From positions 1-32,772 of IMG/VR virus record IMGVR_UViG_3300044614_001837: 32,772 nt of DNA. The stretch is one strand, 5' to 3'. This document shows positions 1,597 to 23,987 of the stretch, piece by piece (position 1 is the stretch's first letter; each line of letters opens with the position of its first letter). The notes under the pieces are model-generated. The model was not told the origin of the DNA and ran no database searches. It saw only the letters and a list, made by a program, of their open reading frames with translations. Made by a program: the position numbers and the translations under genes. The DNA comes from a virus.

Positions 1597-4500
1597 ATGG
1601 AATATTTAGGCGGTAACCCTAATGGTTTAAATCAACAAACTAAAGATAAAATTTCTTTATTTGTAAGCGGGAGTAGAATAGCTAATTTCTCATCTCAATC
1701 GGTAGATGTAGTTGGTAATTTTAGTGCATCTAAGATTCAAACTGATGAAATTGATTCTTTTGGTAATAATCCGCTTCAAATAAACACAAATACACAAATT
1801 AGTGGTTCGATTAATATTTCATCATCAATATCCGCATCTTTATTTAGAGGCGATGGTGGTGGTTTATTTAATATAAGTGCCGCATCTATTGGTGATTTAG
1901 ATAGATTAAAATCTGGTTCGGCAACTGCAATAATTTCTCCAAATAAAGGACTAATAGTTAATACTGACTTAACAGTAGCAGGTACAATAAATGCAACTGA
2001 ATTAAAAGTAATTTATATTTCATCATCTATAATTTATTCATCTGGTTCAAATAAATTTGGTGACTCTCAACTCGATAAACAAGAATTCACAGGAAGTGTT
2101 GGGATAACAGGTTCACTATCATTTGGAGATGGTTCATTGCAACAAGATGGTAGTACAAATGAAGTTTTAGTTTATAATTCATCAACTGGTAAAATTGGTA
2201 TAAAAACCGCAGCGGCAACTTCCGGTACATCAGGAACTTCCGGTACATCTGGTACTTCGGGTACAAGTGGAACATCTGGTACATCTGGTACTTCGGGTAC
2301 AAGTGGAACATCTGGATTAGATGGTTCTTCGGGAACATCAGGAACTTCTGGTACATCCGGCACTTCAGGAACATCAGGAACTTCCGGAACATCTGGAACA
2401 TCTGGTTCTTCCGGAACATCGGGAACATCAGGCAGTAGTGGAACTTCTGGTACAAGTGGTTCATCAGGAACATCTGGTACTTCTGGTTCTACTGGTAGTA
2501 GTGGTACAACCGGGTCATCTGGTACTTCTGGTTCATCCGGAACAAGTGGCACGCGTGGAACATCAGGAACTTCTGGAATAAGTGGTTCATCTGGAACATC
2601 GGGATCAAGAGGTACATCGGGAACTTCTGGAATAAGTGGAACATCAGGAACAACAGGCTCAGCCGGTACATCTGGTATAAGTGGTAGTAGTGGTACATCT
2701 GGCTCTGGAGGAACTTCGGGAACTTCGGGAACATCTGGAATAACGGGAGCAGGTGGTGGAACTGGTTCGGCCGGTTCTGCAGGAACTTCCGGTACATCAG
2801 GAACTTCCGGAACATCGGGAATAACTGGAGCTGGCGGAACTGCAGGTTCATCGGGAACATCAGGCACATCTGGTACATCGGGAACAAGAGGAACTTCTGG
2901 AACTTCGGGAGTAAGTGGAGCTGGTGGTGGTAGTGGTTCAGCGGGTACGTCAGGTTCATCGGGAACTTCGGGAACTTCTGGAACATCAGGAACTTCTGGA
3001 ACATCTGGAAGCAGTGGTTCATCGGGTACTTCAGGTACTTCTGGATTAGGGGGTTCATCAGGAACTTCCGGTACATCTGGAACTTCTGGTACAAGTGGAG
3101 CACAAGGTTCTTCGGGAACATCGGGAACTTCTGGTACAAGTGGTTCGGCAGGAACTTCTGGAACTTCTGGTAGTGGAACTTCTGGTACATCGGGAACATC
3201 AGGAATAAGTGGAACATCTGGTACATCTGGAATAAGTGGTACATCGGGAACATCTGGTACAAGTGGAAGTGCCGGTACATCTGGAATAAGTGGTACATCG
3301 GGAACTTCTGGCACAAGTGGAACTAGAGGAACATCTGGTACATCTGGAATAAGTGGAACTTCTGGAACTTCAGGAAGTAGTGGTACATCAGGTTCATCTG
3401 GAACAAGTGGAACTCGAGGAACATCGGGAACATCAGGAATATCTGGCACATCGGGAACTTCTGGTTCAAGCGGTACATCGGGAACATCTGGCACAAGCGG
3501 TACTAGAGGTACATCTGGCACAAGTGGAAGTAGTGGTACATCGGGTTCTTCTGGCACAAGTGGAAGTAGTGGTACATCAGGTTCTGCTGGTACATCCGGA
3601 TTATTGGCATTAACTGGTACAACTGATAATGGTGTAATTACTTTAAACGGAAGTGCACCAAACGGGACAGTAGAATCAAATTTAACTTTCAATGGTACTC
3701 TATTAACAGTAACTGGTAACGCTACAATTACTGGTGACCTTACTGTAAGTGGTACTACAACATATATTAATACAACAACTTTAAATGTAGGTGATAACAT
3801 CATTACATTAAATGCAGATATTGGAGCATCAACGGCACCAACTGAAAATGCCGGCATAGAAATTAAGAGAGGTAATGCGGCAACAAAACAATTCATTTGG
3901 AATGAAAGTACGGATAGATGGTCATTTGATGATACTATAAACGTATCAGGTAATGTAGTTCTTAGTGGTACAATTGATACTGGAATAGGTGCAACTGAGG
4001 TTTATTTAATGGACCAAAACGTAAGAACTACCGATGCTGTAACATTTGCAACCGTTAATACCGGACAAGGTGCTAATGAATTATATGCAATGGACCAAAA
4101 TGTTCGTACAACGGACGCAGTAACATTTGCAACTGTAAATACTGGACAAGGTGCAAATGAATTGTACGCAATGGACCAGGCGGTTCGTACAACCGATGCT
4201 GTAACATTTGCAACCGTAAATACCGGACAGGGGGCTACGGAAGTTCATTTAATGAATCAAAATCTTAGAACAACCGATTCACCTACATTTGTAAACGTAA
4301 CATCAAACTTAAGTGGTATAGCAACATCGGCTAATCTACTAAACGCATTGGCTAACTATGGTTGGAATGCAGCAACCTTACCAACTTCATTTGGACAAGG
4401 TATAACAAACGCATTTGTTTCATCGGCAGAAGGATTTCCAAATTATGGTTCTGTAATGATGATGAGAACATATGCTGGTGGTGGTGGTTCATTACAATTA

Positions 4501-7500
4501 TATACACCATATAGTTCTGTTTATGGTGGTACTAGATTACAAGCTCGTTTTGGTGATTATGGTGTAAGTAGTGGTAACTCTTGGACTGCATGGAGATTGA
4601 TATTAGATAGTGTAAGTGACCCTTATGCATATAATATGAATCAGTATGTGAGAACAACTGATAATGTAACATTCAATCAGGTAATATCTTCAACTGGAGT
4701 TTATGCGGCCGGTACATCTGGATTTTATAGTACAACATATGCTGGTAATGTTAGAAATCCAATTTGGAGATTTGGAAATGCCGATGGATATGGTATAAGT
4801 TACTTCCAAGGAAATGCTGGAGCTTATAGTAACTTAGATACCATTGGTATTCATATGGGAACAGCAACAGCTGCAGGTTCTCAATGGCAGTTCAATCAAG
4901 CAGATAATTCATTTAGGTCATCAGGTCCAATATACTTTACAAACTATCTTTATGGTAATAGTAAGCAAGCATTAGATACAACTGATTCTTATTTAAGATT
5001 AAACCAAGCTAATCAATTTAGTAGTGGTACTTATACCCCATATAACTTTAGAGCAGATGGTACAATTTATGTAGGTGGTACATCATACTATATTAATAGT
5101 AGTACATCTCGCTTAAATGCACTCGAAACATCAGATAGAGTTGTAATTGGCGGAAACTTTAGCAATCAAGCATATAGTTCGGTAGCTTCTACTAGATTAC
5201 ATTTTGGTGGAGGTGATAGTGATGCAAATTCAAATTATTACATAGGTACTAACTTAGAAAACTTTGGAGGTAATTATACTAAGTTAGATTTAAGATGGCA
5301 CACTGGTATTCGTATGGGTGCACAAGCTGGCTATGGTGGGGTTAGGATATTTGATTCAGAAGATTTAGGAACTAGATTATTTTCAGTTGGTGAAGGTGAT
5401 ACGCATGTAAGGGTAACAAATAATTTATATGTTGCAAACAATTTATTTTTTACCAACTATCTTTATGGTAATAACAAACAAGCACTAGACACAACCGATG
5501 GTTGGTTGAGATTAAACCAGGCTAATCAATTTAGTAATGGTACTTATACTCCGTATGTATTAAGAACGGATGGTGGATTTGAATCATATGGTTCAACAAG
5601 ATTAAGAAATAATTATAGTAGTGGAGCAACCATTATATTAGATTTAGATAACGCATCTCATTATGGTTTAATAGATTTTAGAGAAAATAATTCACATAAA
5701 GGATTTTTTGGATTAGGTGGTACATCACAATCATTTGGAACATATGCAGCATATACCGCAGATGGTTTCAGTTGGAATCACGATGGCGCTGGTAAAATGA
5801 TTATTTCCAATAGAGGTGCATCAAAAAGAATTGATTTAAATACAGGAACTGAAGGTAATTCCAATTTTACTACATTAAGAATGACAAATCAGGATGTTTT
5901 TATAACTCCTGATTCCAATACCGGTAATTTACGTTCACCACTTTTTTATATTCAAAATGATACAACTTATTTATGGAATAGTAATAGAATAGTAGTAAAC
6001 CAAGTAACATTCCCTTATAGAGAATGGGATTTTGGTTGGGGAGCACATGGTACTGGAAGTGGTACACAACCAATGTCATTTAGAATGTGGGATAACTACA
6101 CTCAAGGTGGAGCACCATCTTCATATGGTACATTGATTGAATATTATGGGTTGGTAGGTCACCAACATGACCAATTTTATTTCTATCAGGGTGAAATTCT
6201 TCATAGATACGGGTGGTATGGTACTACAAACTGGCAAAGTGGATGGAGAGCAATGTTGCATGCTGGAAACTATTCTGGATACGCAATTCCTGTTTCTGGT
6301 GGTATAAATATGACCGGTTCTTATGGTTTGAATGATAATAGATTATACCTAAGAACTAATGGTGATACAAACCACTTTTTATGGAATGCAGCCGATGATT
6401 GGGAAGAATTGGTATTTTATTCTGGAACTGGATTTAGAATAGCAGGTAGTAATGGTGGTAACTATGCACAAATAACCACATCAGGTATCAACGCCACAAA
6501 TATGACCATTGGTGGTGCACAGGTTTGGTATAATAGTGGTGGCTGGATGGCCGATTTCGCTTCTTATGGATTTACTAGACATTGGGGCATTAATGTTTCT
6601 GGTGGAGAGTTTGTTACTTTATATGCAAGTGGACAAGTATCTACATTAATTGATGGTAGTTATTTTGCTGGGGAAAATAATGGATTCTTCTCATTGAATG
6701 GTTCTAATCAATACACATCAAGAGTAGGTTTCTCTAATAGTGGTGGTGGTGTTGCAAACTTCAACGCACCAATCCGAATCAATACAAACAATAACATTTA
6801 TTTAGATTACAACTACGGACAATCTATTGTGGGGGTTTATACATCTACTAGATACCAGGGTGTATTCGCAATGGGTGATTCATATAAATTGGCAATTGAT
6901 GGTTCATCTCCTGGTTCTTTATATGGTTTAGCTTGGTCACATCCAAACGCTGGAGGACAAGCATCATTGGGTTTAAATGACCACGGCTTGTTGGTAATGA
7001 ACTATGGTACTACATTTGCGGGAATTTCTTCTAGAATTTGGGCAAGAGACCAAATGAACGCACCAATTTACTATGATAGAAATACTGCATTTTATTTGGA
7101 TGGTGATTCTAATTCTAGATTAAATCACGGAAGATTTGTTGGTTCATCTGGATATTATTCATTATTATTAGGACCTGATACATTGGCAACGAATGGTTCG
7201 ACTTCAGTATATCCTGATGGTGATAGATATGGATTGGTATTGAATGCACCATATTATCCACATCTTTATATTAATTCATACGCAGATAGTGGTAATACAA
7301 CGCATGGTGGTGTTTTATCATTCACTGGTATTAAAACTGCCGGCGGATTTAGAAGATGGGGCATTGGTATTGCAAACCGAAACCCGGATGAAATGAGTTT
7401 TGGATGGTATGACAACAACTATAACCCACATTATGGTGTGGGAATTAACTGGTCATATCCAGCATCTGTTTGGGTTGATACTGGTAATAATTGGTATGCT

Positions 7501-8853
7501 AGAGGTTCAATGAGAGCACCAATATTCTATGACCAAAATGATACTGGAAGGTATATGGACCCCAACGGACAATCATATATTGTTAATTTATGTGTTGGTC
7601 AAAACAATTACTCACACGCATATCCTGGCGTTCTTCAAGTAGGTAGTACATCTTATAACTATAACTTCTTAAATGGTAGTTGGGCAGGTGCAATTACAAC
7701 TGGTATATTAGCAAACTGCGCAGATGAATGGGAATTTGCTGTTCATGATAGTGGTACTAGGGTAGCATCGGCATTTATATTCCAAAGTGGACCTAATAGA
7801 TTCCTAATGGGTAGAGGTCTGTATTGGGGTACATCTTATGTTGAAGCTGCTGAATCTTCTAGAGCACCTATATTCTATGATTCAAATAATACATCATATT
7901 ATTGTGACCCAACCGGATATTCTCAATTAAGTTCTGGTGAAGCTAACAACTATTGGAGAGCAGCAAGATATGATATGACTGGAGTTGGTGGTAACTCTGG
8001 GCAAGGAGCACATGCATATTCTATCTTCCAAGAAGGTGGTGGATGGGGTTATCCTTATCCGGATTTAAGAATTGCATATCATACCGGTATTAAAATGGGA
8101 GCTAATGCTGGTTCGTATGAAGGTATTAGAATTTACGATGATTACCCAATGAGTAGCCTGTTAATACAATTAAGTGGTTCATCAAATTATTCATTCTGGT
8201 ATACTTGGCAGAGATTGGACGGTTATCATGGAATTTATTCTTACCTAAACTCTGCACACTTCTATCCAAATAACTCAACTTATGGAACATGGAGAGTTGA
8301 TGGTAGTAGAAATGGATATGGTGGTATATTATTTGATGTAGGTAATACACCGGTTGTAATGTTTGATGGAGGTGGTAATGGTGGTATTTATTATCAATCT
8401 GGTAGATGGATGTTCTATCATTATTTCCCATACAATTGTGTAGGTGTAAACACATCTTCAACATCACCTTCGTATGGTATGTATGTTAGTAGGGGTATCT
8501 ACGCTACTGAAAACATTGTGGCGTATTCCGATAGACGTGCAAAAGAAAATATAGAAACAATAGATTCTGCATTAGATAAAGTTTTACAATTAAGAGGAGT
8601 TTACTATAATAGAATTGATGATGTAGATAAGAAAAGACAAGTTGGGGTAATTGCACAAGAAGTTGAAGAAGTATTACCTGAAGTAGTAACTTATTGTGGT
8701 GTTAATGATGAGTATGGAGTTGCATATGGTAATCTGGCTGGTATACTAATTGAAGCAGTTAAGGAACAAAATAAAATAATAGAAAAACAATCAGACGAAA
8801 TTAAAGAATTAAAAGAAATTTTAAATAATTTAATACTTAATATTAAAGGATAA
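1597..8853 (+). CDS. Giant tail fibre: collagen-like Gly-X-Y stalk, repeat shaft and C-terminal Peptidase S74 chaperone
   Basis: 2418 residues. Residues 1-208 are a beta-rich head-proximal part. Residues 210-668 are a Gly-X-Y repeat of mostly GTS with some GSS, GIS, GTR and GAG triplets. Residues 669-797 include TVTGNATITGDLTVSGTT, a shaft-like phase. Residues about 798-905 are four tandem 27-residue units. The long remainder (about 906-2310) is rich in G, N, Y and W and carries repeated APIFYD-type motifs. The end (2311-2418) matches the intramolecular chaperone domain Peptidase_S74: YSDRRAKENI with the Ser2311/Lys2316 dyad, then GVIAQEVEEVLPEVV and a closing coiled coil (EQNKIIEKQSDEIKEL). 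In this family the chaperone trimerises the fibre and cuts itself off before the Ser. The protein is very probably the main host-binding fibre. Confidence 0.92.
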   Translation: MEYLGGNPNGLNQQTKDKISLFVSGSRIANFSSQSVDVVGNFSASKIQTDEIDSFGNNPLQINTNTQISGSINISSSISASLFRGDGGGLFNISAASIGDLDRLKSGSATAIISPNKGLIVNTDLTVAGTINATELKVIYISSSIIYSSGSNKFGDSQLDKQEFTGSVGITGSLSFGDGSLQQDGSTNEVLVYNSSTGKIGIKTAAATSGTSGTSGTSGTSGTSGTSGTSGTSGTSGTSGLDGSSGTSGTSGTSGTSGTSGTSGTSGTSGSSGTSGTSGSSGTSGTSGSSGTSGTSGSTGSSGTTGSSGTSGSSGTSGTRGTSGTSGISGSSGTSGSRGTSGTSGISGTSGTTGSAGTSGISGSSGTSGSGGTSGTSGTSGITGAGGGTGSAGSAGTSGTSGTSGTSGITGAGGTAGSSGTSGTSGTSGTRGTSGTSGVSGAGGGSGSAGTSGSSGTSGTSGTSGTSGTSGSSGSSGTSGTSGLGGSSGTSGTSGTSGTSGAQGSSGTSGTSGTSGSAGTSGTSGSGTSGTSGTSGISGTSGTSGISGTSGTSGTSGSAGTSGISGTSGTSGTSGTRGTSGTSGISGTSGTSGSSGTSGSSGTSGTRGTSGTSGISGTSGTSGSSGTSGTSGTSGTRGTSGTSGSSGTSGSSGTSGSSGTSGSAGTSGLLALTGTTDNGVITLNGSAPNGTVESNLTFNGTLLTVTGNATITGDLTVSGTTTYINTTTLNVGDNIITLNADIGASTAPTENAGIEIKRGNAATKQFIWNESTDRWSFDDTINVSGNVVLSGTIDTGIGATEVYLMDQNVRTTDAVTFATVNTGQGANELYAMDQNVRTTDAVTFATVNTGQGANELYAMDQAVRTTDAVTFATVNTGQGATEVHLMNQNLRTTDSPTFVNVTSNLSGIATSANLLNALANYGWNAATLPTSFGQGITNAFVSSAEGFPNYGSVMMMRTYAGGGGSLQLYTPYSSVYGGTRLQARFGDYGVSSGNSWTAWRLILDSVSDPYAYNMNQYVRTTDNVTFNQVISSTGVYAAGTSGFYSTTYAGNVRNPIWRFGNADGYGISYFQGNAGAYSNLDTIGIHMGTATAAGSQWQFNQADNSFRSSGPIYFTNYLYGNSKQALDTTDSYLRLNQANQFSSGTYTPYNFRADGTIYVGGTSYYINSSTSRLNALETSDRVVIGGNFSNQAYSSVASTRLHFGGGDSDANSNYYIGTNLENFGGNYTKLDLRWHTGIRMGAQAGYGGVRIFDSEDLGTRLFSVGEGDTHVRVTNNLYVANNLFFTNYLYGNNKQALDTTDGWLRLNQANQFSNGTYTPYVLRTDGGFESYGSTRLRNNYSSGATIILDLDNASHYGLIDFRENNSHKGFFGLGGTSQSFGTYAAYTADGFSWNHDGAGKMIISNRGASKRIDLNTGTEGNSNFTTLRMTNQDVFITPDSNTGNLRSPLFYIQNDTTYLWNSNRIVVNQVTFPYREWDFGWGAHGTGSGTQPMSFRMWDNYTQGGAPSSYGTLIEYYGLVGHQHDQFYFYQGEILHRYGWYGTTNWQSGWRAMLHAGNYSGYAIPVSGGINMTGSYGLNDNRLYLRTNGDTNHFLWNAADDWEELVFYSGTGFRIAGSNGGNYAQITTSGINATNMTIGGAQVWYNSGGWMADFASYGFTRHWGINVSGGEFVTLYASGQVSTLIDGSYFAGENNGFFSLNGSNQYTSRVGFSNSGGGVANFNAPIRINTNNNIYLDYNYGQSIVGVYTSTRYQGVFAMGDSYKLAIDGSSPGSLYGLAWSHPNAGGQASLGLNDHGLLVMNYGTTFAGISSRIWARDQMNAPIYYDRNTAFYLDGDSNSRLNHGRFVGSSGYYSLLLGPDTLATNGSTSVYPDGDRYGLVLNAPYYPHLYINSYADSGNTTHGGVLSFTGIKTAGGFRRWGIGIANRNPDEMSFGWYDNNYNPHYGVGINWSYPASVWVDTGNNWYARGSMRAPIFYDQNDTGRYMDPNGQSYIVNLCVGQNNYSHAYPGVLQVGSTSYNYNFLNGSWAGAITTGILANCADEWEFAVHDSGTRVASAFIFQSGPNRFLMGRGLYWGTSYVEAAESSRAPIFYDSNNTSYYCDPTGYSQLSSGEANNYWRAARYDMTGVGGNSGQGAHAYSIFQEGGGWGYPYPDLRIAYHTGIKMGANAGSYEGIRIYDDYPMSSLLIQLSGSSNYSFWYTWQRLDGYHGIYSYLNSAHFYPNNSTYGTWRVDGSRNGYGGILFDVGNTPVVMFDGGGNGGIYYQSGRWMFYHYFPYNCVGVNTSSTSPSYGMYVSRGIYATENIVAYSDRRAKENIETIDSALDKVLQLRGVYYNRIDDVDKKRQVGVIAQEVEEVLPEVVTYCGVNDEYGVAYGNLAGILIEAVKEQNKIIEKQSDEIKELKEILNNLILNIKG
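2221..3600 (+). repeat. Collagen-like Gly-X-Y coding repeat (about 150 triplets)
   Basis: Gly recurs every third residue for residues 210-668 of the fibre. The only phase break I see is a two-residue unit (GS) near 3169-3174. GTS dominates and proline is absent. The DNA is not a simple repeat: Thr and Ser codons vary (ACA, ACT; TCA, TCT, TCC, TCG, AGT), although near-exact local copies occur around 2251-2316. Confidence 0.95.
3988..4311 (+). repeat. Four tandem 81-bp (27-residue) repeats in the fibre
   Basis: Units start at 3988, 4069, 4150 and 4231. Each encodes G-A-x-E-x-x-x-M-D/N-Q-x-x-RTTD followed by a T-F-x-x-V phase. Units 2 and 3 differ by one residue (N or A before VRTTD). Unit 4 is diverged. 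A lone relative (MNQYVRTTDNVTF) appears near 4636-4675. Confidence 0.9.
4936..5583 (+). repeat. Duplicated 45-residue module in the fibre (4936-5070 and 5449-5583)
   Basis: Two 135-bp segments encode FTNYLYGN, KQALDTTD, LRLNQANQFS and GTYTPY in the same order with a few substitutions. They are 513 bp apart start to start. This looks like duplication of a fibre shaft module. The segment between the copies is not itself duplicated. Confidence 0.85.
7052..7925 (+). repeat. Three dispersed APIFYD-type motifs in the fibre
   Basis: NAPIYYDRNTAFYLD (about 7052-7120), RAPIFYDQNDTGRYMDP (about 7510-7585) and RAPIFYDSNNTSYYCDP (about 7858-7925) are copies of one short motif spaced about 350-450 bp apart. 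A weaker copy is SPLFYIQNDTTYLW near 5935. Motifs of this kind recur in S74-type fibres and mark shaft repeats. Confidence 0.8.
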
Positions 8854-18901: not shown

Positions 18902-21598
18902 ATGAGTACATTTCCACAATTATCTAACATTGACTCTAAGATTGTAACCAATCTTGTAGCTGGAACAAAAGCCGGCTTAAATGCTTCTCAACGAATTTGT
19001 TGGATTAGAGTATTTTCTGGTGCAAAAACCGGAGCTGCGGAAGGATTGATTATATCATCTAATATGAATTATGGTACATTTAATCCATCTACAACTAATA
19101 ATGCTGGGTTTGCATATGGAAATTCAGTAAGTGGTGGAACTTTTGGTAATACTTGGGCGGGAGGAGCCCTTCTCTCAGCAGGTGGGCCGTTAAGACCTTC
19201 TCCTGGTATAACTGGTTTGCAAATAAAAGAAGGTAAAGACCAAATTTCAAGAGAATGTACTCTATCACTAGAATGTTTTTCATTAGAACAAATGGAACTA
19301 ATGCAAAGGTATTTTTTAGAGCCTGGATATTCTTTATGTATTGAATATGGGTGGAATAGCAATGTAGGGTTAGCGCAAAAAATGCCAAACATTGGTACTG
19401 CGGGTATTTTAGAAGCTGCAGCAAGCCGTAATTTAAATGGTAATAACTTACACCAAAGAAGAATTGATAGTTTGGGAGATTATGATACATTTTTAGGATT
19501 TATAGTAGGTGGGAATGTTCAATCGGATGATGATAAGTGGAAAATATCAGTAAAATTGAGAGGTGCACCGGGAATGCCAACATTTTTGCAATCACAAAAT
19601 AAAACTTTAAAAATAAACAGTGACGGAACAATAGAAGAAAAAGAAGGTGAACCAATATTATATGATGTAGCCGATACGATTTCTCCTGCAGCCGGCGAAG
19701 ATGTGAGAAAGAACAGAAGGTTTAAAAATATGTATAATCAATTACCAACTACAAGACAAATACAAGCGGTAAGGGATTTGTTAACTACTAATAAAGTTAA
19801 CTGGTATGATTTTATAAATTTTGATGCAGCTGTAAATAAGGCAATTACTACATATTCATCTCCTGGATGGTGGGCAAGTACTTTTACAAGTGCTTCCGAA
19901 ACCGTAACAGTTGGAAAAGCTAAAATAGAAAAAGAAAAACTATTCTCAACAAACAAATATATACGATTTGAATTAGCTATTGATATTTTAAATAGAAATG
20001 GAGAATTTAGTGATTATATATTAGCCGGAAAAAAACTTCCTATTACAATTGATATTAGTAATGCAAAAATAGGAGCGTTTCCAAATATGTTTTCCACAAA
20101 AGATTCTAAATTGATAATACCAGGATATATGCCTGATTTTTCTGCATATTTTTTAAATTCAGGCGTAATAAGTCAAAAAGCTGGTGGAAGGTTTGAAGTG
20201 ACGGGAGACGAAGAATCTCCATATGAAGTTATAGATAATAAATTACCAACAGTTGGTGCATTTGTTGAAACCGCAGATACTTCTTTAGGCCCATCTCACA
20301 CGGAAAAAGGAAATTATTGGGGATATTTAAAAAATCTTTATATAAATTTTGAAGTATTTAGGTCAAAAATAGAACAAAAAAATAAAACCATTAGAGAAGT
20401 TTTATTGGATATGTTAAATGAAATGTCATCGGCTGTAAATTCTTTTTGGAATTTTCAGGTAGTTGAACAACAGGATAAAGATGGTAATATTATACTAAGT
20501 GTTGTTGATGAAAATTGGATTGGAAAAAAAACGGGTGGCTCGGTACAATTCTATCATTCGGGTCCTTATTCTATATTTTTAGATGCTAATATAGATATTG
20601 CATTACCGTCTGAAATGACAAATCAAATAATTAGTAGGAGATTGGCATTGGCAAATAATCCAGATGAACCAATTGTTGGAGTTGGTGGGTTTTTTGAAAG
20701 TGCAACGGATTTATTTTTGACTAGTTATACCGATAGCAATGGTAACCCAAAAAAGATACTAACCGAAGACGAAAAAAAGAAAGAAGATGAAGCCGCAGCG
20801 GCAGCAGCGGCAGCGGCAGCGGCAGAAGATAAAAAGAAACCTTCCGAAAAAACCCAAGAAAAAATAGTACAAAGTACAGCCACAGAACAGGCATTAAAAG
20901 ACCAAATAACTAAAATAAGAGCCGATTATGCAAATAAGGGAGCTCGTGTAGGTGCCGTAGAACTTGTACAAGAAGCTGCTAATTTAGCGGCTCGATTAAT
21001 TAGAACCGATGCTGAAATCGCAGCAGCAGAAGAAGCCGAAAAAATAAAAGATGCGTTGGAAGATAAACGAGATGCGGAAATTAAAGTGGTGGAAGATAAA
21101 ATTGCTGCTGAAAAAGCGGCAAGAGAAATTTTACAAAAACAAAAAGATGAGGAAGTAAAAACGGAAGAGGATAAAGATGGTGAAATTGCTGCCAAAGCCA
21201 TCGGTGCTAATTTAGAAAAAATAGATGTTGTACCCAAAGTTGAACTGGATACAATTCCAGAAGAGCTTGGTGATATCACCTCCACAAAAATTTTAAAAGA
21301 AAAATTTCAGATATTTTGTATGGATGATGAGCCATTATTTGATAGATTAAAAAATGATGCATTTGCAAATAAAAATAAAGGTACTACTGAAAAAGGATTA
21401 TCACATCCACTTCCGATAAAATATACTTTTAAAGTTTTAGGTACAAGTGGATTTAGAAGGGGTGACACTTTTAATATTATTGGAATACCAACAAAATACG
21501 CCAAACATGGTTTATTTCAGATTATAGAAATAGAACATAATGTGAGTGGTATGACATGGACAACATCGGTAACCGGACAATATAGACAAATGCAATAA
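18902..21598 (+). CDS. Baseplate hub protein (gp27/gpD-like) with an Ala/charged coiled-coil insertion
   Basis: 898 residues. The N-terminal part has ISRECTLSLECFSLEQMELMQRYFLEPGYSLCIEYGWN (split here only by phrase), typical of hubs in environmental myoviruses. The C-terminal end PIKYTFKVLGTSGFRRGDTF, then GIPTKYAKHGLFQIIEIEH and WTTSVTGQYR is the last hub domain, a beta structure at the base of the tube. Between them, from about residue 629 to 800, is a low-complexity helical insert: a run of 12 alanines, then long Glu/Lys/Ala helices. It is likely a coiled-coil arm. No lysozyme domain is fused, unlike T4 gp5. Confidence 0.8.
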   Translation: MSTFPQLSNIDSKIVTNLVAGTKAGLNASQRICWIRVFSGAKTGAAEGLIISSNMNYGTFNPSTTNNAGFAYGNSVSGGTFGNTWAGGALLSAGGPLRPSPGITGLQIKEGKDQISRECTLSLECFSLEQMELMQRYFLEPGYSLCIEYGWNSNVGLAQKMPNIGTAGILEAAASRNLNGNNLHQRRIDSLGDYDTFLGFIVGGNVQSDDDKWKISVKLRGAPGMPTFLQSQNKTLKINSDGTIEEKEGEPILYDVADTISPAAGEDVRKNRRFKNMYNQLPTTRQIQAVRDLLTTNKVNWYDFINFDAAVNKAITTYSSPGWWASTFTSASETVTVGKAKIEKEKLFSTNKYIRFELAIDILNRNGEFSDYILAGKKLPITIDISNAKIGAFPNMFSTKDSKLIIPGYMPDFSAYFLNSGVISQKAGGRFEVTGDEESPYEVIDNKLPTVGAFVETADTSLGPSHTEKGNYWGYLKNLYINFEVFRSKIEQKNKTIREVLLDMLNEMSSAVNSFWNFQVVEQQDKDGNIILSVVDENWIGKKTGGSVQFYHSGPYSIFLDANIDIALPSEMTNQIISRRLALANNPDEPIVGVGGFFESATDLFLTSYTDSNGNPKKILTEDEKKKEDEAAAAAAAAAAAEDKKKPSEKTQEKIVQSTATEQALKDQITKIRADYANKGARVGAVELVQEAANLAARLIRTDAEIAAAEEAEKIKDALEDKRDAEIKVVEDKIAAEKAAREILQKQKDEEVKTEEDKDGEIAAKAIGANLEKIDVVPKVELDTIPEELGDITSTKILKEKFQIFCMDDEPLFDRLKNDAFANKNKGTTEKGLSHPLPIKYTFKVLGTSGFRRGDTFNIIGIPTKYAKHGLFQIIEIEHNVSGMTWTTSVTGQYRQMQ

Positions 21599-21956: not shown

Positions 21957-21988
21957 TTTGGAATTGTTATAAAAATTTCATATATTTG
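21957..21988 (+). promoter_or_regulatory. Bacteroidota-type promoter for the tmRNA (TTTG, 20 bases, TATATTTG)
   Basis: TTTG at 21957-21960 and TATATTTG at 21981-21988 match the Bacteroidota housekeeping consensus (TTTG or TTG at -33, TAnnTTTG at -7) with 20 bases between them. The mature tmRNA 5' end is predicted at 22002, so the primary transcript would carry a leader of a few bases. TATTTATT (21989-21996), the late-motif variant, overlaps the space before the RNA. Confidence 0.8.
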
Positions 21989-22001
21989 TATTTATTGATA
22001 T

Positions 22002-22394
22002 GGGGATGTTTTGGAATTGATTGCGATGCGAGACATAGTATCACACGTAGTGGGATGGTTCTTCAACCACTTTAATATCGGAATCAAACAATAACTGACG
22101 TAGAATTATCTACTTGGAACTTCGAAGATGCTATGGCATTTGTAGGAGCTTACGATTACGCTGTAGCAGCATAATCACCACCCGCATCACTCGTGGGTTT
22201 TAAATAGAAGTGAACAAACCGGAGCATTACTTATCGGCTCCCTAAAACTGATAGGTTGGTGGAAACGCTGAACTAACCATTCGGCCCCAATTATTTTGGA
22301 AAGTGAATAAGATTAAACTTTATCCTAAACGTGTGAAAAGCTGGTATTATGGTTACTTCGTAAGACACCGGTTCGAGTCCGGTCATCTCCACCA
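22002..22394 (+). ncRNA. ssrA: Transfer-messenger RNA (tmRNA), phage-encoded
   Basis: 393 bases. The 5' end GGGGATG pairs with CATCTCC near the 3' end to form the 7-bp acceptor stem with one G-T pair, and the encoded tail is ACCA. The T-arm is ACCGG-TTCGAGT-CCGGT. Between these lie pseudoknot-like pairings, for example GGAGC with GGCTCC around 22218-22243. The tag region follows the sequence AATAACT that commonly precedes resume codons, and it stops at TAA 22172-22174. The encoded peptide ends AYDYAVAA, a ClpXP-type degron like the usual ALAA. If the codon right after AATAACT (GAC, 22097) is the resume codon, the tag has 25 residues; a GCA at 22136 would give 12. tmRNA rescues stalled ribosomes and tags the products. 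Confidence 0.95.
22097..22174 (+). other. tmRNA tag reading frame (long form)
   Basis: The frame from GAC 22097 to TAA 22172 is open for 25 codons, starting DVELSTWNF and ending AYDYAVAA. The hairpin containing CCCGC and GTGGG follows the stop at about 22180-22197, as helix 5 does in other tmRNAs. The resume codon is inferred by analogy with tmRNAs in which AATAACT or AATAGTC precedes it. Confidence 0.6.
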
Positions 22395-22400
22395 CTTTTT

Positions 22401-22438
22401 AAATCCCCATTTTACATTTGGTAATTTGGGGATTTTTT
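22401..22438 (+). terminator. Rho-independent terminator of the tmRNA
   Basis: AAATCCCCA (22401-22409) pairs with TGGGGATTT (22427-22435). An inner TTAC/GTAA stem (22412-22415 with 22421-22424) lies in the loop, and T residues run to 22438. It starts 7 bases after the CCA end. Confidence 0.9.
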
Positions 22439-22448
22439 CGTATATTTG
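22417..22448 (+). promoter_or_regulatory. Bacteroidota-type promoter embedded in the terminator (TTTG, 20 bases, TATATTTG)
   Basis: TTTG at 22417-22420 lies in the terminator loop and TATATTTG at 22441-22448 directly follows its T tract, with exactly 20 bases between. It is 15 bases from the end of the -7 box to the ATG at 22463, so the mRNA would have a very short leader. It should drive the small gene and the polymerase-like gene. Confidence 0.75.
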
Positions 22449-22462
22449 TATAAATTGTTTTT

Positions 22463-22729
22463 ATGGGTAGATGGCCGGAAAAACCAAATGATAAACCTAG
22501 AAAATTCCAACATGTCTATAAAGATGATGATGGGGTTGAATCAATTTGGAAATATGATTTAGATAAATTTCCAAATGGACCAATTTCAGTTGAAAATAAA
22601 TACCCACCTCACTATGAAAAGAAATTAAAAGCTCAACAAAAAGAAGCTAAATTGGTAAAAAAACAATCAACATTAGAAAAAGCAAAAGCTGTAAATAAGA
22701 ATGATACGAGTGATAGAAAATATTGGTGA
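22463..22729 (+). CDS. Small basic protein upstream of the polymerase-like gene, function unknown
   Basis: 88 residues, no recognised family. The N-terminal half reads RWPEKPNDKPRKFQHVYKDD, then SIWKYDLDKFPNGPISVEN. The C-terminal half is a Lys/Gln/Ala helix (LKAQQKEAKLVKKQSTLEKAKAV, shown as phrases). Its end overlaps the start of the polymerase-like gene by 29 bases in another frame, which implies coupled translation. It is the first gene behind a host-type promoter and not behind the late motif. A DNA-binding or polymerase accessory role is possible, but this is inference from charge and position only. Confidence 0.65.
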   Translation: MGRWPEKPNDKPRKFQHVYKDDDGVESIWKYDLDKFPNGPISVENKYPPHYEKKLKAQQKEAKLVKKQSTLEKAKAVNKNDTSDRKYW

Positions 22730-23987
22730 GTTGGGAGAATTAAAGATAAAATTGGAAACCGAAGTATCTCTTTGGTATCCTATGTGGGTGGATAATGATA
22801 AGCATCCACGAAACACCCATATATCCTTTATCCTGATACGAACCCTTACCGATAGGTACATTCTACCACACCAACACACCGATACCACAGCCCTCTCTAA
22901 ATCACAAATAGAAGGGGTGCTGAATACAAACGGAGATAAATGGGTTTTTCAAAAAAAGAAGCTACTACAATCATTCTCTAATTTAAGGAATGGATTGAAT
23001 GATATTGATACTGCACATTTTCTTAAAACCGGAGAAACAATAGATTATTCTCAACCAATACAACATTTAGTAGCTCCTTTATTACACAAAGGTTACAAAG
23101 AAAATATCATTCAATCCATTCCTATTCTTAAATTGTGTGAAGCCGTTGATAATGAATTCCTAAAACACCATAGTCAAAAAACTAAAACTTATAATTGGTA
23201 TAATGATATCTTCTTACCAATCCTTTCAGATATTGAACAATTCGGAATTCGGGTCGATAGGGAAAAATTTATTGATAGATGGCCACAAGCTCACAAACAT
23301 CTTTCCTCCGATAACTTAGTGTACACCGAATATAATCCATTTACGATAACGGGTAGACCTTCGAATAGACATGGTGGTGTGAACTATGCAGCCCTAAACA
23401 AATCGGATGGAAGTAGAGACACCCTAATAGCGGATGGGATATTCTTACAAATGGATTACGATTCGTATCACCCACGTCTTATTGGTAAGTTGATTGATTT
23501 TCCCTTACCACAAACTAATGTTCACCAATGGTTGGCTGAGCAATATGGATGTGATGTTGCCGAAGGTAAAGGTGTAACGTTCCGCCTTCTTTATGGTGGA
23601 ATCGATGATGAGTTTCGACAAATCCCATACTTTGATAAGGTTGCTGATTTTATTGATAGGTTTTGGAAGGAAAGTGTGGAAAGGGGTTATATCCAAACTC
23701 CAAACCGCCATATACCATTAAGTTGGGTAGAACAATCCAACCCACAAAAAGTATTTAACTATCTACTTCAAGCATATGAAACTGAAATAAATGTGGGTAA
23801 AATGAAAACCATATTGGATTATATTAAGGGAAGTGGGATTAGTTTAGAATTGTACACTTATGACTCGTTTCTTTTTGATGTACCTACTGATGTGGATAAG
23901 AGTTTGATTATGGGATTGAAGAATATAATTGAGGAAGATGGATATCCTATCAAAGCGAGTTGGGGAAAAACTTACGGAAACCTCTAA
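22701..23987 (+). CDS. Compact family-A DNA polymerase-like protein
   Basis: 428 residues. Family-A landmarks are present in order. TGRPSN is at 217-222. Motif A is MDYDSYHPRL with Asp252. Motif B is KGVTFRLLYGG with Lys290, Tyr298 and Gly299, the same K-to-Y spacing as K758-Y766 of Pol I. Motif C is YTYDSFLFDV with Asp388, where Pol I has HDE. The Arg four residues before the motif B Lys is missing and the Glu of motif C is Ser. The distance from motif A to C is 136 residues against about 177 in Pol I, so the fingers are reduced. Residues 1-150 may be a degenerate exonuclease-like domain; no clear DxE is seen. Alternative starts exist near 22780, but the early residues look genuine. Confidence 0.8.
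   Translation: MIRVIENIGELGELKIKLETEVSLWYPMWVDNDKHPRNTHISFILIRTLTDRYILPHQHTDTTALSKSQIEGVLNTNGDKWVFQKKKLLQSFSNLRNGLNDIDTAHFLKTGETIDYSQPIQHLVAPLLHKGYKENIIQSIPILKLCEAVDNEFLKHHSQKTKTYNWYNDIFLPILSDIEQFGIRVDREKFIDRWPQAHKHLSSDNLVYTEYNPFTITGRPSNRHGGVNYAALNKSDGSRDTLIADGIFLQMDYDSYHPRLIGKLIDFPLPQTNVHQWLAEQYGCDVAEGKGVTFRLLYGGIDDEFRQIPYFDKVADFIDRFWKESVERGYIQTPNRHIPLSWVEQSNPQKVFNYLLQAYETEINVGKMKTILDYIKGSGISLELYTYDSFLFDVPTDVDKSLIMGLKNIIEEDGYPIKASWGKTYGNL

Follow-up and report, generated by a model that had tools for sequence, protein, structure and literature searches.

Why phages carry a tmRNA is, to our knowledge, an open question, and most of the proposals we know of treat the phage tmRNA as a copy of the host's. 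Here, we analyzed a viral genome fragment in which a preliminary description, made from the sequence, had pointed to such a gene. The fragment is linear, corresponds to a whole IMG/VR record of 32,772 bases, and is part of a genome; it is called the window in the following. Phage tmRNAs are already known. What is unusual at this locus is the tag that the RNA encodes, which is extended and conserved among related phages.

A complete tmRNA gene

Both ARAGORN and the Rfam model RF00023 call a one-piece tmRNA gene (ssrA), as opposed to a two-piece (permuted) one, at 22002-22394 on the plus strand, with the same ends. The Rfam match has a score of 75.4 bits, for a gathering score of 47 (E-value 9e-28), and covers the full model (1-374) without truncation. 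The tRNA-like domain includes a 7-bp acceptor stem, where the 5' strand GGGGAUG (22002-22008) pairs at all seven positions with CAUCUCC (22384-22390), and this includes G3.U70, the alanine-identity pair. The T-arm (22367-22383), the 3' strand of the acceptor, and an encoded CCA together occupy 22367-22394.

We assessed the structure on an alignment of 27 sequences, with the acceptor, T-arm, helix 2, PK1, helix 5, and PK2 as read from the window. In this alignment, 85% of the cells are paired, which drops to 40-49% once the partners are slid, and 88 cells have compensated changes compared with 30.5 in shuffles. G3.U70 is kept in all 27 sequences, and the T-stem is 100% paired, with covariation in four of its five pairs. 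Changes on both sides were found at 4 of the 6 pairs of helix 5 (22180-22198), which lies directly 3' of the tag stop codon, and at 8 of the 11 pairs of PK2 (22221-22255). The exact pairs of PK1 (22049-22085, where 22049-22053 pairs with 22067-22071 and 22057-22062 with 22080-22085) are present in about half of the aligned rows, because some relatives have another PK1 sequence at the same position. The spacing between PK1 and the resume codon is the canonical one, 11 nt, in 27 out of 27 aligned tmRNAs. The fold energy of the single strand is also below that of shuffles (z of -2.59). Among similar tmRNAs, the PK1 and helix 5/PK2 segments (alignment columns 50-87 and 182-260) differ block by block, e.g., in L003, L007, and L026 relative to the window, which looks like an exchange of modules between phage tmRNAs.

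The tmRNA at 22002-22394 is real, complete, and phage-encoded. The preliminary description of a complete gene, with acceptor stem, T-arm, and CCA, is backed by the covariance model, by ARAGORN, and by a full acceptor pairing that holds on close inspection.

Genomic context and relatives

Upstream of the tmRNA is a large baseplate-region protein (18902-21598, plus strand) without Pfam or PHROG match, itself preceded by sheath, tube, and hub genes. The conserved downstream neighbor encodes the C-terminal part of a DNA polymerase family-A-like protein (22701-23987, plus strand; phrog_17, 2e-7). The tail genes of the window comprise a sheath (PF04984/PF17482 and phrog_23), a tube (phrog_4542), and a hub (phrog_150), and the window also encodes a secreted DNA/RNA nuclease (PF01223) and a peptidoglycan-binding/chitinase-like lysin. 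The presence of these tail genes and of the nuclease on the same contig supports the preliminary view that the tmRNA is on a virus and not on a host chromosome. A tail-fibre-like protein of 2418 residues (1597-8853) has long GTSGTSGTSG repeats and a chaperone-like C-terminal end; the repeats result in long spurious open frames on the opposite strand.

The sheath is closest to those of Microcystis phage Mel-JY01, an uncultured 484-kb phage, and Flavobacterium phage immuto. No tmRNA was found in the sheath relatives Flavobacterium phage immuto and Rhodothermus phage RM378, and, at the DNA level, the tmRNA matched phages only over stretches of the size of a T-arm. Relatives on viral contigs were collected through the polymerase-like neighbor, not through the RNA, and 63 of them had enough upstream sequence. 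In 59 of the 63, a tmRNA is located 53-1198 bp upstream of the polymerase-like gene, and the other four lack it there. The tmRNA is hence nearly fixed in this phage group, and its position between the baseplate-side and polymerase-like genes, proposed for the window, is recovered in these 59 relatives. The preliminary description had called phage tmRNAs uncommon. They had already been counted in 402 of 18,146 phage genomes (PMC9004378), and the present gene is no curiosity of a single genome. The window is not chimeric either, since contigs from many metagenomes share its junctions: the gene order is the same in the 59 relatives, and one independent contig (L002) has a 100% match to the baseplate-region protein together with the same tmRNA. 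This rules out a chimera at 21957-22440.

Promoter, terminator, and probable host

The gene is preceded by a predicted promoter of Bacteroidota type (21957-21988, plus strand), with TTTGG at 21957-21961 and TATATTTG at 21981-21988, separated by 19 nt. TTTGG-N19-TAnnTTTR has the -33/-7 layout known from Bacteroidota promoters. It was found in all 32 distinct upstream regions of the neighbor-found relatives, always with 19 nt, for an average of 0.03 in shuffles; the TAnnTTTG box on its own is not above chance within the window. Given this layout, the host of the virus is probably a member of the Bacteroidota. At the other end, an intrinsic terminator was read from the sequence at about 22401-22438 (plus strand), with a CCCC..GGGG stem and a T run, and a run of at least five T within 60 nt is present in 31 of 31 distinct downstream regions of relatives. 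The promoter and terminator first noted in the window are thus shared by the group, and from these signals the tmRNA is predicted to form its own transcription unit. The gene had also been placed in a late region. It does adjoin virion genes, but with a promoter and a terminator of its own, late expression can be only weakly inferred.

A second promoter-like element, TTTGG-N19-TATATTTG (22417-22448, plus strand), has the same box spacing as the tmRNA promoter, overlaps the terminator, and points to the polymerase-side genes. In a subset of relatives (L139, L145, L190, L197, and others), the usual promoter layout is replaced by AGTTCTTTAA(A)ATAT, or by a sequence close to it, abutting the 5' end of the tmRNA. 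This element resembles the boxA antitermination element.

The tmRNA encodes an extended tag

The tag frame of the window (22097-22174, plus strand) starts at the resume codon GAC (22097-22099), ends at the stop codon TAA (22172-22174), and has 25 codons encoding DVELSTWNFEDAMAFVGAYDYAVAA, with a degron-like AVAA end. Its resume context, AATAACT followed by G, matches that of Bacteroidota ssrA. The surplus of tag-coding sequence appears as an insertion of 46 nt in the RF00023 alignment. A tag frame had been recognized in the preliminary description and is indeed present, but its extended, conserved, and phage-only character had been missed. ARAGORN proposes another tag, VNKPEHYLSAP (22210-22245), which we rejected: it lies beyond helix 5, has the wrong spacing from PK1, and the relatives agree on 22097-22174. 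The program also gives a false tag for several relatives. Standard annotation therefore hides the extended tag.

The tag was not used to search for the neighbor-found relatives, and among these a tag of the same kind, with 23-26 codons, is found in 41 of 41 distinct tmRNAs, all of which keep the frame. The tags of relatives include DEMSTMTFEDLMAFVGADYAVAA, DVELSTWTFDDVMAFVGADYAVAA, and AEELSSFTFEDAMAFVGADYAVAA, and among the more diverged ones DEMSTMTFDSMMEFIGASEYAYAA and ADVELSTMTFEDAMAWMNSFDYAVAA. The C-terminus is YAVAA or YALAA in 56 of the 72 distinct tag sequences, and most of the others have another hydrophobic-Ala-Ala end. Some relatives have tags ending in DEATFA, DEAVMA, or GRLIK instead of xAA, and the ClpX signal is therefore not shared by all of them. 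In L201 (around position 1080, minus strand), the tag reads FDDLMAFVGRLIK before its stop codon and the AA end is gone, which may be an assembly error or a decayed copy.

Selection on the tag

A first test of selection was biased, since a pattern search fixes amino acids, and we therefore used the neighbor-found set. Across its 17 distinct tag cores, pN is 0.186 and pS is 0.433, resulting in a ratio of 0.43, and most changes are thus synonymous. The pairs behind these values are non-independent; a column-shuffle control, which preserves relatedness, gave a pN/pS of 1.04 +/- 0.40, with 1 in 300 shuffles as low as 0.43. The other frames of the same region have ratios of 0.88 (+1) and 1.47 (+2). 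Furthermore, all gaps of the tag region in the 27-sequence alignment are multiples of three. The low pN/pS and the frame-keeping gaps indicate that the amino acid sequence of the tag is under selection. Across distinct cores, S and M are found in 51 of 51 and F in 50 of 51, values to which the search pattern itself contributes in part. Hairpins are also predicted within parts of the tag-coding RNA, and some of the constraint may thus be on the RNA.

The tag in viral and host genomes

To study where the tag occurs, we searched for F[ED]DxMAFVG at the DNA level, with a degenerate pattern. This pattern matches at least 119 viral stretches, and the distinct viral contexts all read as tmRNA tags, 69 in called tmRNAs and 14 in uncalled or truncated ones. 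Across 84,980 bacterial and archaeal genomes, the core motif was found in no tmRNA; there were five matches, all in ordinary protein contexts. Searches by tblastn across 50,697 records of phages and 72,556 of plasmids did not recover the tag, but did find a control peptide of 25 residues. A similar search with an alanine-rich tag attributed to a mycobacteriophage had no match, possibly because of low-complexity masking or of an inexact query sequence, and this comparison was dropped. In the open-access portion of the literature, we found no extended phage tag and no such sequence.

Host tags have 9-10 residues in 30 of the 30 best-scoring Bacteroidota tmRNAs readable by ARAGORN, the top-scoring part of 248 genomes in which unusual hosts may be missed; the phage label is around two and a half times as long. 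Because dozens of related viruses conserve the amino acids of this label, which was found in no bacterial genome searched, the virus seems, from sequence comparisons, to label the products of stalled ribosomes with a mark of its own.

Comparison with known systems

The gene of the window is like the chromosomal ssrA of Bacteroidota in its resume context (TAACT before GGC or GAC), one-piece structure, and promoter type. The difference is in the tag, since those of the hosts resemble GENNYALAA or DNNYSYRLAA, and in the RF00023 score, which is 138-205 bits in the listed Bacteroidota hosts and 75 in the window. In a tree of the tRNA-like domain, the extended-tag tmRNAs fall outside the host clades and have backbones of at least two kinds; the tree has 128 columns, is badly resolved with unsettled bootstrap, and we claim no origin from it.

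Like the tmRNAs of mycobacteriophages (Bxz1 group and Wildcat), Bacillus phage G, Melnitz, and huge phages, the present one is a complete gene, usually found without SmpB. Huge phages with both tmRNA and SmpB are known (PMC7162821), and strong expression of a phage tmRNA has a precedent in Wildcat (PMC7474061). For phage tmRNAs in general, a role in supporting or redirecting rescue has been proposed (PMC4131195, PMC9004378, PMC7162821, PMC7474061). Unlike them, the clade of the window has a conserved tag of 23-26 residues; in Bacillus phage G, ARAGORN gives 13 residues. Another long tag is that of Mycoplasma and Mesoplasma, read by Lon. According to the work cited in PMC9382460 (Gur and Sauer 2008; Ge and Karzai 2009), the extended Mycoplasma tag co-evolved with Lon, a precedent for a changed proteolytic determinant that re-aims the tag to another protease. 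The Mollicutes tag is chromosomal, in bacteria without active ClpXP, and has a NYAFA end, whereas the tag of the window is phage-borne and its relatives end mostly in AVAA; the likeness is in length and aromatic content only.

A possible role for the tag

We consider it fairly probable that this is a functional phage tmRNA which supplements or takes over trans-translation in infection and adds a phage-specific extended tag to the rescued fragments. The sequence supports the first steps: a Bacteroidota-type promoter would drive an RNA with the fold of a tmRNA, including PK1 and the other pseudoknots, the resume site, and an acceptor of alanine identity, and its open frame encodes the 25-residue tag, which is conserved as a protein. 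The RNA would then be charged with alanine by the host alanyl-tRNA synthetase and carried by the host SmpB, or by a phage SmpB in the minority of relatives that have one, to stalled ribosomes, which mRNA cutting in infection may render more frequent. A rescued fragment would gain A-DVELSTWNFEDAMAFVGAYDYAVAA. The tag end, VAA or LAA in most relatives, would keep a ClpX-type signal leading to degradation, and the conserved aromatic and acidic front LSTWTFEDAMAFVG may be recognized separately, a protease or an adaptor being the most likely partner. The candidate routes, suggested by resemblance, are the host Lon or a phage-modified ClpP, by which fragments made during infection might be cleared the phage's way. 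The preliminary suggestion that the RNA replaces or competes with host rescue, or feeds ClpXP, is plausible. We favor a bipartite degron, because the VAA/LAA end fits the ClpX signal, the front is unlike that of hosts, and the Lon-read Mollicutes tag provides a precedent; within this model, the main alternative is that the tag docks to an adaptor of the phage or of the host.

The gene might instead be an ordinary copy of a host tmRNA that boosts host-type rescue with a ClpXP fate, the extra residues being a neutral linker. The VAA/LAA C-terminus of most relatives fits this explanation, as does the tolerance for length implied by natural tags of 8-35 residues (PMC8012679). Yet a neutral linker would drift, while the extra residues are strongly conserved (the pN/pS above is from the unbiased set), and the tag is in no host genome searched, which makes this explanation unlikely. 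There is a smaller chance that the tag is a non-degradative label for rescued fragments or selected host proteins, leading to sequestration or to association with the membrane or the virion. This would account for the conserved aromatic-rich front and for ends without Leu-Ala-Ala (EATFA, EAVMA, and ELELV in the second tag family described below), but most tags end in hydrophobic-Ala-Ala and the binding partner is purely hypothetical.

One might also expect a decoy, a role suggested for the RNA of mycobacteriophage DS6A, which is TLD-only, that binds SmpB, occupies ribosomes, and blocks host trans-translation. A TLD-only molecule does inhibit tmRNA (PMC4131195), and many relatives have the tmRNA without SmpB. 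The intact mRNA-like domain (PK1, resume site, open frame, stop codon, and PK2) and the protein-level selection on the frame render this very improbable. As for a remnant of prophage integration, i.e., an attachment-site copy of the host ssrA, integration of temperate phages at ssrA is known from cases cited in PMC9004378. We give it almost no weight: the gene is complete with its own promoter and terminator, its tag is unlike that of any host seen, and it is syntenic with T4-like myophage structural genes in 59 relatives.

The length of the tag, its conserved amino acids, its occurrence on viral contigs, and its absence from the bacterial genomes searched indicate that the phage depends in some way on the tag as such. 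The question thus becomes one at the level of the peptide, i.e., which partner binds or degrades DVELSTWNFEDAMAFVGAYDYAVAA, and such a tag would also be a naturally occurring starting point for orthogonal degradation tags.

SmpB, ClpP, and other long tags

There is no SmpB gene in the 32.8-kb fragment, which is only part of the genome. Among 20 long relatives (78-294 kb), 18 have the tmRNA, 2 have SmpB, and 5 have a gene of the ClpP family. The phage SmpB genes (L207, 1423-1911; L208, 1498-1953) are in relatives of 134 and 294 kb, both with an extended-tag tmRNA. Six relatives (L094, L181, L199, L226, L228, and L229) have a ClpP-family gene at a fairly constant distance, about 3.3-4.9 kb, from their extended-tag tmRNA, and in L229 (5362-5904) the Ser and His motifs of ClpP are kept, as read by eye. 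These neighbors, present in a subset of relatives, are suggestive of a route.

In a survey independent of the tag, tmRNAs on viral contigs were identified by their 3' end alone. Tags of 8-17 residues are present in 35 of the 43 found, 2 are members of the family of the window, and some of the remaining ones carry long tags of a different type. The latter define a second extended family, with the core MA[PM]S[LV]xEADA[IV]LA[KQ][HY]G and tags of about 30-33 residues, in tmRNA context on phage contigs (L331, L411, L413, L418, L424, L426, L429, L434, L436, and others). The pattern EADA[IV]LAx[HY]G, taken from one of these tags, matched 35 contigs; in 25 of these the match is within a tag frame, e.g., ANNNVDMAPSVAEADAILAKHGWAEEAAVAA and AEDNFDMAMSLEEADAILAQYGFEDAEAELELV, and the C-termini are AAVAA, ELLAA, LQLAA, or ELELV. 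Both families are on phage contigs and have a long conserved core, but their cores and C-termini differ, which suggests convergence. We propose, tentatively and with more doubt than for the role of the RNA, that a large group of Bacteroidota phages may have re-programmed trans-translation, with a conserved bipartite degron or docking tag directing fragments to a protease or adaptor chosen by the phage, or off the host route, and that other phages may have done likewise independently with a different tag.

In the uncultured 484-kb phage (LR756508.1, 92434-92880; L399, 1501-1944), ARAGORN calls the tag GRRKPLSW, and a frame of 36 codons, GVNNADYESAGFTAEDFAQMDGESLYHGSERKPAAV and a stop, begins at the usual context and is a tentative tag. 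Together with the second family, this suggests that long tags arose or spread in several phage groups.
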